A stretch of DNA of 64,000 nucleotides. Origin: Coffea arabica (taxonomy: Eukaryota > Streptophyta > Magnoliopsida > Gentianales > Rubiaceae). The number at the start of each line of letters is the position of its first letter. The first letter of the stretch is position 1. Position numbers and translations under genes: made by a program. Below are positions 15,013 through 20,534 of this stretch, one piece after another. The stretch lies in the NCBI RefSeq assembly GCF_036785885.1, contig NC_092315.1, positions 21,554,026 through 21,618,025 on the forward strand, in the 5' to 3' direction. The notes under the pieces are model-generated. The model made no database searches. It saw only the letters and a program-made list of their open reading frames with translations, and had not been told where the DNA came from.

Positions 15013-16204
15013 ATGCCACCAAAAAGAAAATATGCTACTCTTCAAGAACGATACCAGGAAAGAAATAGGAGACGGCGGGAGCGTCGTGCTATTAGTAGGT
15101 CAGAAGCAGTTGGGAATTCTAGCAGAGGCACTTGTACTGTGGCATTAACGGCAGTGCAAATCTGCCCTGAGTATATTGAATCAGCATCTGGTGTTCCAGA
15201 ACAACCAGGAAAACGTAATCAGCAAAAGAGAAGAAAGCGTGAATCTTCAAGTTCAAAAGCTGCTATGATTAATCTAGATCAGAATTCTGATGCTATTTTG
15301 ACTTCTACAGAGTCAGAATCAATACCTGTTGAATACATTCAATCAACATTTGGTATTCTACAAGAAGCAAGAAAATGTAATCAGAAAAAAGGAACAAAGA
15401 CTGATCTTTCAAATTCAAAGCTTGGTATAATTGGTCTGGATCAAAATTCTGATAATGTCTTAACCTCTGCCAAGTTAAAATCGTTCCTAGGTACACAGAA
15501 TTTTCAAACAACAAATGTTATTCTCAGCTCTGGTATTGACATTCCTTCAACCAGTACAGGGATAAACAATGATACTTATCAAATTGCTTCAAGTAATAGA
15601 GCAATAAACAATGGCACTCTTGGATCTCAAAAACCTGCCCGGCGATCTCAATAACGTCGTCAAAGACAGAAAAGAGATATTCTACAAGACATTGCTACAG
15701 AATCAATGACATTACCAGAAGCTTCTTATTGTAAACTCTGTGGAGCAAAAAAATTTCACTTAGAGCCTCCTGATTTTTGTTGTTCATCAGGTGAAATTCG
15801 ACTCCTTGAAACTGAGATGCCTCGAGAATTGATGTTGTTATATCTCAGTGACAATAATGAGGCTGCACACTTTCGCAATTGTGTGCGAAGCTATAATAAT
15901 ATGTTTACTTTTACTTCAATAGGAATGCACTGTGATAAGGAATTAGGAAAAAAGTACAATGGTATCTATACCTTTCGAGTGCAGGGTCAGATGTATCATT
16001 TTATAAATCCATTAGTTCCTGCTGATGGTCAAAAGCCAGTGAATTTGCAGTTGTATTTCTATGATGCTGAGCATGAAGTAGAAAATCGTCTGTCCATATC
16101 AAACAAGTTCAGAGAAAATTTGATAGTAATGTTGGCTGATCTATTGAAAGTAAATCCGTACTCATCATTTTTTCATGGATTACAAGACTTGCCTGATCTA
16201 GATG

Positions 16205-16404
16205 TGTTGGCCTAATCAGCAACATCCCTCAGATCCCGGTTCGACGGGACTAACCGCCCAGCCCGTGGCACCCAGGGGTGCAGACCCTCATGCTGGCCGA
16301 GCGTGGTACGGTGCTTTGCGCTGCCATTGTGGTTAAGGAAATAAAGTTGCGCCTTCACTAACAGCTATAGCTTTTGGTGCAATGGTAAGCGCTTGATCCT
16401 AACA
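16205..16404 (+). repeat. TRIM 5' LTR (200 bp)
   Basis: Begins TGTTGGCCTAATCAGC and ends GATCCTAACA. It differs from the 3' LTR by one base. Confidence 0.95.
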
Positions 16405-16448
16405 AGTGGTATCAGAGCGAGGTCGCGGGTTCGAATCTCCCTGGCTGT
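16361..16448 (+). other. tRNA-like cloverleaf spanning LTR end, PBS and internal region of the TRIM
   Basis: 88 nt fold by eye as follows. Acceptor stem ACAGCTA/TGGCTGT is 7 of 7 (one G-U). The D-stem GCTT/AAGC is perfect around a GG-containing loop. The anticodon stem GCTTG/CAAGT is 5 of 5 (one G-U) with 7-nt loop ATCCTAA (anticodon position CCU, with U33 and A37). A 17-nt variable region contains most of the PBS. The T-arm GCGGG-TTCGAAT-CTCCC has one mismatch. It has an A-box-like (TGGTGCAATGG) and a B-box-like (GGTTCGAATC) element. It is probably a tRNA-derived pol III-like module rather than a functional tRNA, since the variable arm and missing position 26 are atypical. Confidence 0.5.
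16407..16418 (+). promoter_or_regulatory. Primer-binding site TGGTATCAGAGC (tRNA-iMet type)
   Basis: Begins two bases after the 5' LTR. This is the standard plant LTR-retrotransposon PBS complementary to the 3' end of initiator methionine tRNA. Confidence 0.92.
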
Positions 16449-16463
16449 TGCTGGGGGAGGGAT

Positions 16464-16663
16464 TGTTGGCCTAATCAGCAACATCCCTCAGATCCCGGTT
16501 CGACGGGACTAACCGCCCAGCCCGTGGCACCCAGGGGTGCAGACCCTCATGCTGGCCGAGCGTGGTACGGTGCTTTGCGCTGCCATTGTGGTTAAGGAAA
16601 TAAAGTTGCGCCTTCACTAACAGTTATAGCTTTTGGTGCAATGGTAAGCGCTTGATCCTAACA
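16464..16663 (+). repeat. TRIM 3' LTR (200 bp)
   Basis: Starts 259 bp after the 5' LTR, one base different, followed by the AGATG duplication. Confidence 0.95.
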
Positions 16664-17031
16664 AGATGAATACAGAATAATGTTGCAATCAAATCCAACA
16701 GTTGATCAGCACATTTACAACAAGCCAACAGTCTCACAAGTTGGTGCTCTTTGGACAGAATCACAGACCTCTGATCAAACCAATAGCAAACACATTCAAG
16801 TGTATTCAAAAAGTGGGAATGCTCAGATTGTAAAGCACTATTATGGCTGCTATGATCCAATGCAATATCCACTTATATTCCCTAATGGAGAACCAGGATG
16901 GCATCTAGGAATAGAAAAACTTTCAAGTGCACAAAATAATGCTACTTCAGGTAAAACCTGTCCAGGAGAAAGAACAATTCCAGTAGATATGTTCATGACT
17001 GCAGAAGATGTTATACATGCTGAAAACCAAG

Positions 17032-17132
17032 GTATCATTAATCGTATATATTAACAATTTCTATTCAAGATCAATTTATATTAGCTATAGTCATTACATA
17101 TTGTGCCTAATTACTCACCTTTCTATAAACAG
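17032..17132 (+). other. Intron in Helitron-2 Rep coding sequence (101 bp)
   Basis: Donor CCAAG|GTATCA and acceptor TAAACAG|TTGCAGC give ENQ-V-A-A-K, matching the exon join of Helitron-1 (ENA-V-A-E). An in-frame TAA follows the donor, so here splicing is required. Confidence 0.7.
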
Positions 17133-20100
17133 TTGCAGCAAAGCGTAGCAAAAAGCGAAAGTATGTATCTTGCAGAGAATATTATTGCTACAAACTGCAG
17201 ATCAAACCTGAAGACAAATCAATGCTCTTGCATATTGGAAGGCTACTCCAACAGTATGTGGTTGACATGTACGTGAAGATTGAAACATCACGGCTTAATT
17301 TTTTCAAGAATGATCAGTACCATAATCGCCTTAGGACTGAGTTATATCAAGGTCTTCTTGATAGCTTATCAACTGGAGAAATCAATGGCTCAAATGTTGG
17401 TAAAAGATTCATATTGCCTCGCAGCTTTATTGGTGGTCCACGCGACATGAAGCGTCGTTATTTAGATGCAATGACTTTGGTTCAGCAGTATGGCAAACCA
17501 GACATTTTTTTAACAATGACTTGCAACAGAAATTGGCCAGAAATCAAGAACCTTTTATTGCCAACAGAGAAGACAGAGAATAGGCCTGATCTGGTATCCC
17601 GAGTTTTTTGAGCTAAGTTGCAAATGTTAAAGAATGAACTTTTCAAGAAACATATTTTTGGCAAAGTTGCAGCTTACACATATGTTATTGGATTTCAGAA
17701 ACGTGGTCTTCCTCATGCACATTTTCTTATCATTCTAAAGCATTGCTCTAAGTTATTGAATCCTGAAGCATACGATCGCATTGTTTCTGCTGAGCTACCT
17801 GATTTACATAAACACAGGCATCTGCACTCTTTAGTAGCACAACATATGATGCACGGACCCTGTGGACAAATAAATCCAAACTGTGCTTGTATGTAGAAAG
17901 GTGGAATTTGCAAGGATAAGTATCCAAAACAATTTGCTGAATCAACAAGACATGGTCAGAACTCTTATCCAATCTATCGACGAACTGATAACAAAAGGAC
18001 TGTCAAGGTTCGAGGAGATCATTTGGATAATCAATGGGTAGTTCCTTACAATGCATATCTTTTGTCCAGATTTGACTGCCACATGAATGTAGAGATATGT
18101 TCTACTATACAAGCAGTTAAGTATATTTATAAATACATCTATAAGGGTCATGACAAGATACTATATCAACTCAGCAATGGAGAAGCAAATCAAATGCTTG
18201 ATGAAATCAAGAATTTCCAATCAGCAAGATGGATTTCAGCACCAGAAGCTATGTGGAGAATATATAGTTTTGATCTTAATGAAATGCATCCTTCTGTAAT
18301 GACTCTACCAGTGCATCTAGAAAATCAACAACCAGTCACTTTTCCAGATCAACAATCTGTTGATGATGTTATAAAAAATGCACATTTGAAAAAAACTATG
18401 CTCACAGAATTCTTTCAGATGAATAAGTATGACCATTTTGCAAAAAATTTGAATTGCCTATATACAGATTTTCCTCAATATTTCGTATGGGATGCTAAGT
18501 CAAGATATTGGTCATTGCGACAGCAAAGAGATGTAATTGGAAGAATTGCTGGAGTTCATCCTTCTGAAGGTGAAAGGTACTATTTAAGACTCTTATTAAA
18601 GCATGTTAAAAAGCCAACATTATTCCATGATCTAAAAGTGATTAATGGCAAAATTGCTACATCCTTCAGAGAAGCAGCAGAGTTCTTAGGTCTATTACAA
18701 GCTGATAATAGTGTAGAAATTTGTTTAGCAGAGGCTGTCCTATATCAAATGCCATCTTCACTTCGTCATCTGTTTGCTACAATCTTAGTCTACTGCAATC
18801 CTTCAAACTGTCAAGAGTTGTGGCTAAAGTTTAAGAATTTTCTTTCTGAAGATATTCAACAGAATAAAACATTATCTACAGAAGTAGTCAATGGCACAGT
18901 ATTGCAGATTATAGACATGCATTTGAGAGCAATGGGAAAACAGATCACACACTATGGTTTTTAGCTATACCAAATACACAACTGCAGAATCACATGGACA
19001 CAAAAGAATTTCAGATAGAAAAAAATATCATCACTCCTGAGGAAGATTTGCTCTCAGTAAATCAACTAAATGAAGAGTAGAAAATTGCCTTTGATAAAGT
19101 ACTACATTGTGTCAACAACAACATATCAAAGGCATTTTTCATTGATGGACCAGGAGGAACTGAAAAAACTTACCTCTATAAAGCTCTGCTTGCAACTATA
19201 AGATCACAAGGCTACATAGCACTTGTTACTGCAACATCAGGTGTAGCAGCATCCATTCTTCCTGGAGGTCGAACTGCACACTCAAGGTTCAAAATTCCCA
19301 TTAATGATGATCAAAATAAGTACTGCAACATCAGCAAGCAAAGTGTCTTGGCTCAGCTAATCAGAGATGCTAAGCTCATTATATAGGATGAAGCTACTAT
19401 GGCTAAAAGAAAATCAGTTGAAGCCCTTGACAAGATGTTACAAGACATAACAAATAACGGCCATTTTTTTGGTGGAAAAGTCATTGTCTTTGGTGGTGAC
19501 TTTCGTCAGACCTTACCGGTAATCACACATGGTACCAGAGAAGATATCATAGATACCAGTCTTGTCATGTCACCATTATGGAGCAAAGTCGAAAAGATCA
19601 GATTAACAGTCAATATGAGGGCAAGACTTGATCTAGATTTCTCAACATTCTTGATGAGAATTGGAGATGGAATAGAGCAAACTACTGATGAAGATGAAGT
19701 TCAGATACCAGAATCAATCAACATTTCTTTTCAAGATGATGAAACTTCCATAAATGCTCTGATTGATACTGTGTTCCCAAATATGGAGTACATTACTTCA
19801 ACAACATCATATATCATCAATCGAGCAATATTGATGACAAGAAATGACTTTGTTCATCAGATTAATCATAAGTTGATAATGAAATTTCCAGGAGCAGAGA
19901 GAACCTACTTCAACAATGATGAACCATTACACTCTTCAGTACAATTCCAAGATCAAGATCTATTGCATTCTCTTACACCTAAGGGCCTTCCTTTGCATGA
20001 GCTAATACTGAAAAAGAACTGTCCAGTGATGCTTCTCAGAAACATCAATCCAAGTGAGGGCCTATCAAATGGTACACGCCTAATCTGTAAGGAATTTTCG

Positions 20101-20534
20101 AATAACATAATTCAAGCACAGATAGCATTTGGCTCTTTTGCAGGAAAAATTGTTTTCATTCCAAGGATACCATTACAAGCTTCTGATGATGAATTGTCTT
20201 CAGTACAGTTCAAGAGAACTCAATTTCCACTGCGCTTGTGTTTCGCAATGACCATTAATAAAGCTCAAGGACAAACACTTGATTATGTTGGACTTTACCT
20301 CAGAGAACCAGTTTTTTCCCATGGACAACTTTACGTTGCTTTGTCAAGAGCACGGACAGCTACTAACATTAAAGTTCTGATACAGCCACCACACGGACAA
20401 AGAGAAAGCACCAATTTGACACGAAATGTTGTCTATCAAGAAGTGCTTTCAGCAGTAGCTAATAGCTAACTCTTACTTCCTCACATTTTCTCTATTATTT
20501 TGTTTATGTTTCCTACCATTGCTTACCATTTTCG

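Follow-up and report, generated by a model that had tools for sequence, protein, structure and literature searches.

Small-RNA promoters inside TRIM elements have precedents in two described groups. Cassandra is reported to use a pol III promoter (PMC7215508, PMC10853983), and Helenus (TRIMp3), described by Kojima in 2024 as a TRIM of plants and fungi, has LTRs, a primer-binding site (PBS), a polypurine tract (PPT) and 5-bp TSDs (PMC10886601). The only plant Helenus in the sections of PMC10886601 drawn on here is from Selaginella. The TRIM analysed here, which lies in a 64-kb stretch of Coffea arabica DNA (the window), likewise contains sequence of the small-RNA internal promoter type, one of the features that define TRIMp3. 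Small-RNA promoters inside TRIM repeats are thus already known, and what appears to be new is the layout, with an A box and a B box split by the LTR/PBS junction; within the portions of the open-licence PMC literature covered, we found no earlier description of a module split in this way.

The coffee TRIM is 459 bp long (16205-16663), with two 200-bp LTRs and a non-coding internal part of 59 bp (Table 1). A PBS complementary to the tRNA-iMet 3' end and a PPT lie between the LTRs and a 5-bp TSD flanks the element, as in Helenus-type anatomy. The TRIM lies in Helitron-like sequence and appears to interrupt this region (15706-20469); Helitron_like_N and PIF1 domains, belonging to Helitron gene fragments, are encoded downstream of it, and the ORF directly upstream has no Pfam match.

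A 26-nt motif from the LTR end gave 259 matches in the genome at up to three mismatches, and its reversed control gave none. For the comparison of copies, matches in 85 loci were deduplicated by flank, leaving 56 unique copies. Among 41 TRIM loci, a set that includes the window copy (L001) and is partly non-independent because the duplication CCTTA is common to L028 and L029 and because L036 overlaps L041 within a tandem array, 34 had identical 5-bp flanks and 14 had mismatch-free LTRs, and the few oldest-looking copies carried up to 25 LTR mismatches. Tandem arrays with 259-bp spacing, the length of one LTR plus the internal part, were found at G000:C20:46353930-46354741, C12:30394769-30395307 and C7:44048227-44048541. 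Two patterns tried against viral contigs returned no relatives of the TRIM (0 matches).

Another TRIM family in the genome (L053, L054, L058, L059, L060 and L061) measures about 225-230 bp and has LTRs of about 46-50 bp (TGTTATGGAATT...) and the same PBS. Members form a tandem series at G000:C13:14317601-14318251, L060 and L061 have 5-bp TSDs, and GGTTCGA follows the PBS by about 30 nt; none of the three copies tested (L053, L058 and L060) has an A box. This family is about the size of CcaRetroS9 (233 bp), the smallest TRIM given in the parts of PMC4717578 used here, which also describe tandem arrays in other plant TRIMs.

Table 1. Features of the coffee TRIM and of the tRNA-like module at its LTR/PBS junction, in window positions.
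Feature	Position	Strand	Remarks
Left TSD, AGATG	16200..16204	.	Paired with right TSD AGATG, 16664..16668
5' LTR, TGTTGG...CTAACA	16205..16404	+	200 bp; one mismatch to the 3' LTR
AATAAA	16340..16345	+	Poly(A)-signal-like, or TATA-like at about -28 of a tRNA-type +1; putative function
Acceptor-like helix, 5' side, 8 bp	16360..16367	+	All 8 pairs in 27/56 copies
TTTT in 5' LTR	16372..16375	+	One of two T4 runs in the element on the + strand
A box, TGGTGCAATGG	16375..16385	+	Fits TRGYNNARYGG; within LTR; 56/56 copies
Canonical D arm, GTGC-AATGGTAA-GCGC	16377..16392	+	222/224 cells paired
Anticodon-like arm across LTR end	16391..16407	+	280/280 cells paired
Internal region	16405..16463	+	59 bp; same length in 41/41 loci examined
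PBS, TGGTATCAGAGC	16407..16418	+	Complementary to the tRNA-iMet 3' end
T arm, imperfect stem (C.C and G.U)	16425..16441	+	217/280 T-stem cells paired
B box, GGTTCGAATC	16428..16437	+	Fits GGTTCRANNC; internal region only; 54/56 copies
Acceptor-like helix, 3' side	16442..16449	+	Pairs with 16360..16367
Polypurine tract, GGGGGAGGGA	16453..16462	+	By place ahead of the 3' LTR
3' LTR	16464..16663	+	200 bp; A box at 16634-16644, no B box after it
TTTT in 3' LTR	16631..16634	+	Candidate pol III stop

An earlier note on this DNA had described A and B boxes and a T loop, TTCGAAT, at the junction, and a motif scan of the window copy recovered all three, with the PBS standing between the A box in the LTR and the B box in the internal part. 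When TRGYNNARYGG, with up to two extra letters allowed before GG, had to be followed by GGTTCRANNC at 28-80 nt, the 64-kb window contained a single pair of boxes at tRNA-like spacing, at the junction, and 200 shuffled windows contained none. Conservation of the boxes beyond the PBS, which the earlier note had set as a test of its reading, holds across copies (A box in 56/56, B box in 54/56). Two similar motifs within the LTR were rejected as parts of the module: the B-box-like GGTTCGACGGG (16238-16248, upstream part of the LTR) is variable at 16239, 16240 and 16245 and does not fit GGTTCRANNC, and a second A-box-like motif at 16294 has no B box at tRNA spacing.

We compared the junction with 46 control iMet-PBS junctions, made up of 40 of at least 100 exact-PBS places, all near the start of contig 1, and six loci preselected from 11 other-family loci with GGTTCGA after the PBS, some of the 46 sharing families. 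At none of the 46 did the 47 nt preceding the PBS contain an A box or did ARAGORN make a call; the best score of any control against a panel of 18 tRNAs was 39.5, compared with 51.5 for the window module. Two of the 46 contained a full B box in the 45-nt stretch, both of them preselected for GGTTCGA. Other families with GGTTCGA after the PBS were rejected as carriers of the module, since the six tested among the 11 fetched loci had neither an A box nor an ARAGORN call.

Because the boxes are near-universal in the 56 copies and the A box is absent from all 46 controls, we prefer a promoter reading, which is the best of the three that the earlier note had offered (promoter, mimic or relic). We propose, with a probability of about one half, that the TRIM has its LTR/PBS junction within a degenerate tRNA-like gene, closest to tRNA-Trp, which, if it works, would do so as an internal pol III (TFIIIC) promoter and not as a folded tRNA, and that the proteins come from a Copia family. 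The LTR A box and the internal B box, with the PBS between them, would be a candidate TFIIIC-type internal promoter, from which pol III would start about 20 nt upstream of the 5' LTR A box, near 16356, read through the PBS and the internal part, and possibly terminate at the T4 run in the 3' LTR. The predicted RNA would be about 280 nt long (279 by coordinates), with a short repeat shared by its two ends. Against this reading, the other T4 run, in the 5' LTR, sits between the expected start and the A box and would have to be read through there. Reverse transcription copies the A box into each LTR, but the B box lies past the PBS and is not copied. A full-length element would therefore have the whole promoter at its front, and only half of it would be present in a 3' LTR or a solo LTR; within the element, no B box follows the 3' LTR A box at 16634.

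The sequence upstream of the module can be read in two ways. AATAAA at 16340 falls about 28 nt ahead of the expected tRNA position 1 (16368), a place at which plant tRNA genes frequently carry TATA-like sequence, but it is equally a poly(A) signal. A CAA motif, a feature of plant tRNA genes, is absent at the expected pol III start, which speaks against the promoter reading. In a rather unlikely alternative, the junction came from a tRNA or SINE, pol II transcribes the element, as it does most LTR retrotransposons, and the boxes persist only through the youth of most copies. AATAAA with the downstream TTTTGGTG stretch also suits a pol II poly(A) site, and mismatch-free LTRs at 14 of the 41 loci imply little time for decay. 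In addition, mean diversity in the module (0.047 in its LTR part and 0.046 in its internal part) was like that of the LTR elsewhere (0.051), and this lack of excess conservation counts against the promoter reading. Against such a relic, the LTR has no good TATA box upstream of the module (no TATAWAW with fewer than two mismatches in the LTR, and none with two mismatches before 16338), and the A box is intact in every one of the 56 copies, although older copies are few.

Coincidence, in which the LTR end, the PBS and a downstream GGTTCGA merely resemble a tRNA and the pairing is accidental, seems distinctly unlikely in view of the shuffling tests. ARAGORN identified 16360-16451 as a tRNA-Arg(CCT), the only tRNA call in the 64-kb window, and made no call in 150 dinucleotide-shuffled windows, one call when the 131-nt junction was shuffled 20,000 times and 19 calls in 20,000 sequences in which the D and T arms were held and the rest was shuffled; the lack of a box pair in shuffled windows and of an A box at control junctions also argues against coincidence. 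On the side of coincidence, GGTTCGA occurs near the PBS in unrelated families too (within 30 nt of the PBS at 146 of 36,793 exact PBS sites, the TRIM family itself counted), the acceptor pair 16362-16447 is non-standard in 25 of the 56 copies, RNA folding is ordinary (z = -0.48; 59 of 200 shuffles fold as well), and ARAGORN made calls in only 16 of 42 junction rows, the window copy being one of the 16 and one of the 42 rows being a truncated second view of L036. Rfam scores also fell below threshold: the best tRNA-clan score was 15.2 bits (tRNA-Sec, cut-off 47, E 1.6), and six other TRIM copies plus one other-family locus gave no tRNA match up to E 5. We therefore rejected a functional nuclear tRNA gene, as judged by covariance model and canonical cloverleaf, the T-stem mismatch and odd linkers also speaking against it. 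A Cassandra-type 5S module was rejected as well, since the window has no Rfam match at gathering level and the boxes are tRNA-type. Taken together, these results establish the sequence boxes firmly but not the structure: the tRNA likeness of the junction is beyond chance at the level of tRNA-type promoter boxes, and a working RNA cloverleaf is not supported.

The earlier note had placed a near-canonical tRNA across the junction, and the placement is exact, 16361-16404 being the final 44 nt of the LTR and 16405-16448 the first 44 nt of the internal region. In the window copy its seven acceptor pairs are present (16361-16367/16442-16448, one of them G.U, with one further A-U outside), as are its five anticodon-like pairs (16391-16395/16403-16407, one of them G.U) around a 7-nt loop with U33. 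Other parts of the description stood only in part. The D stem pairs as GTGC/GCGC (16377-16380/16389-16392) but shares two bases with the anticodon stem, and the PBS takes up the first part of the variable region but also the last base of the anticodon stem. "Near-canonical" was therefore an overstatement, given the D and anticodon bases in common, the T-stem mismatch and a linker of 9 nt, not 2, from this acceptor to the canonical D stem; if GCTT/AAGC is taken as the D stem instead, its loop is 13 nt long. From the A box at 16375, tRNA position 1 is expected near 16368 rather than 16361, and in an 83-nt register, the one picked by ARAGORN in L040, an acceptor at 16367-16373 pairs at six of seven positions. 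The acceptor of the earlier note lies one imperfect repeat unit upstream (CAGCTATAGCT), where pairing is better and the linker longer.

In the 56 copies, with the extra pair included, 414 of 448 acceptor cells were paired; the non-standard forms of 16362-16447 were A.G in 24 copies and C.A in one, and T-stem pair 16426-16440 was standard in no copy (0/56) and C.C in 55. The sole both-sided change in the helices examined was in L099, where T-A replaces C-G at 16362/16447, so that compensation of stems between copies, another test set by the earlier note, was nearly absent (1/56) among copies too alike for a strong test. With this single change and the ordinary folding energy, the suggestion of a tRNA mimic for packaging or priming finds little support. 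An RNA device at the PBS, in which an 8-bp helix closes a PBS-presenting domain or a tRNA mimic recruits a synthetase or Gag, is very improbable: the minimum-energy fold does enclose the PBS by the 8-bp helix, the anticodon-like stem is paired in every cell, L099 has its both-sided change, and HIV-1 provides a precedent in a tRNA-like element near the PBS with LysRS (as presented in the parts of PMC11181671 and PMC8191761 used), but the total fold is no stabler than shuffles, fewer than half of the copies keep all eight closing pairs, the A.G and paired forms of 16362-16447 both occur among copies with identical LTRs, and the anticodon-like stem takes in the LTR tip and the PBS edge, which are constrained for other reasons.

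Alignment of the module with the tRNA-Trp(CCA) gene of the same genome (L102) gave 46 identities in 53 positions, with several gaps, over tRNA positions 8-60, and none of 5000 dinucleotide shuffles reached the module's Trp score of 51.5. Trp was also the best of the 18 tRNAs, the other 17 of which (iMet, Ile, Phe and Cys included) were represented by presumed sequences; none of 1000 plain shuffles reached 51.5 against any of the 18, the maximum being 48.5. When the A box, B box and PBS were fixed, 6 of 3000 shuffles reached 51.5 against Trp and 4 of 600 did so against any of the 18. The LTR half alone scored 29.0, under the 99% shuffle level over the 18 tRNAs (30.0), and the internal half without the PBS scored higher against the presumed Ile (33.0, its best fit) than against Trp (24.0). 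When the presumed Phe and Cys tRNAs are themselves compared with Trp, they reach 64.5 and 56.5, both above 51.5, and the module is therefore about as near Trp as another tRNA would be. These comparisons are no more than suggestive of a tRNA-Trp origin of the module. They bear in two ways on the earlier idea of a relic of the primer tRNA joined to a tRNA gene: the similarity to tRNA-Trp favours a tRNA gene, but the primer tRNA, represented by the presumed iMet, scored only 33.0 versus 51.5 for Trp.

In the same alignment, the PBS letters ATCAGA fall on the 3' side of the tRNA-Trp anticodon stem. One scenario, which we consider unlikely as a whole, is that the LTR boundary and the PBS arose within a tRNA-Trp gene, or within a SINE of tRNA-Trp origin, where a short insertion in the anticodon region gave the LTR tip and completed an iMet PBS from the gene's own ATCAGA. 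Reverse transcription would then have copied the A-box half to both LTRs and left the B-box half unique, so that full-length elements would have a full pol III promoter, at their 5' end alone, and 3' LTRs and solo LTRs would always lack one.

Three kinds of chimera join the TRIM to one Copia family with gag, integrase and RT domains. In the first (L105, G000:C2:29181500-29191000), the order is Copia LTR, PBS, TRIM internal part, TRIM LTR, second PBS, Copia leader and ORFs; the ORF with the gag domain has 591 aa and the one with RVT_2 and rve has 1053 aa. Its Copia LTR is 97.9% identical to a downstream copy over 1076 columns; no TSD could be demonstrated for this locus, and its 3' LTR is missing its end. 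A third ORF after pol matches PF20167, a putative plant transposon protein. The TRIM LTR end stands directly before the Copia PBS in at least six places among the best 40 of 1578 candidates scored; the 173-nt query ran from the TRIM LTR end into the Copia leader, with a match required from the first base, and since a query holding the TRIM end ranks such places first, six is a minimum and not a frequency. Four of the six were read (L151, L152, L004 and L105): L151 and L152 have a single TRIM LTR in place of the Copia LTR (112-134 nt upstream of the TRIM LTR examined), and L004 has a TRIM with both LTRs ahead of the Copia PBS. L150 and L153 have an ordinary Copia LTR. At L065/L106 (G000:C4:33480927), which matches L105 at 91% identity across 4 kb, a 27-nt piece of the TRIM, from the PBS to the B box, lies within the Copia reverse-transcriptase frame, which is still open, probably as the result of a template switch. 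Finally, in L050 a related Copia LTR (86% over 236 bp) is joined to TRIM U5.

Strand transfer between templates packaged together would produce joins at the PBS such as these, which may have arisen in that way, DNA recombination being the alternative; template switching in plant LTR elements has been published, according to a reference cited in the part of PMC7215508 used. As read from these sequences, the chimeras support the Copia family as the partner of the TRIM. We infer that this family would provide proteins for the TRIM, with shared particles and trans-mobilisation as the presumed route. The PBS chimeras tie a plant TRIM to a Copia family; in the portion of PMC4717578 consulted, only 11 of 289 TRIM subfamilies had a larger relative.

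If the boxes work, LTR elements would have a second means of exploiting a small-RNA promoter, in which the LTR edge splits the promoter and only intact elements are active. Screens that search only the LTRs for tRNA sequence, as the starting screen of PMC10886601 did (section 3.1), could then miss elements with split boxes.

Among known systems, the HIV-1 tRNA-like element also lies beside the PBS, but it is an anticodon-stem mimic at the RNA level that binds LysRS (per the portion of PMC11181671 used), whereas the evidence for the coffee TRIM favours promoter boxes at the DNA level. SMART/OsajRetroS10 and other plant TRIMs, compared by description only, are likewise very small and commonly form tandem arrays, the rice 25-bp motif CGATCCTA(C/T)AA(G/T)TGGTATCAGAGCC resembles GATCCTAACAAGTGGTATCAGAGC of the coffee TRIM, and OsajRetroS10 also has a Copia-type partner; no tRNA-like module is mentioned for them, the word tRNA being absent from the main texts of PMC3281118 and PMC4717578. 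Cassandra shares with the coffee TRIM its place among plant TRIMs with small-RNA-type promoter sequence and the same PBS, TGGTATCAGAGC, but its LTR holds a 5S rRNA module with boxes A and C, in contrast to the tRNA-type boxes split by the LTR boundary here (PMC7215508 and PMC10853983, in the sections used). Helenus is closest, with tRNA-like sequence containing A and B boxes that is mostly non-functional as tRNA, and with a Copia link in fungi that is matched here by the PBS chimeras; in Helenus, however, the tRNA-like sequence lies in the LTR and both boxes occur in both LTRs, whereas the B box of the coffee TRIM is internal (PMC10886601, in the sections used). As the presence of both boxes within the LTR is the defining feature of Helenus, we do not file the coffee TRIM there. 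The asymmetry of the boxes between its two LTRs is a real difference from Helenus and Cassandra, whose modules sit in the LTR, and the coffee TRIM is probably a TRIMp3-like element with a split promoter that would be used by pol III.
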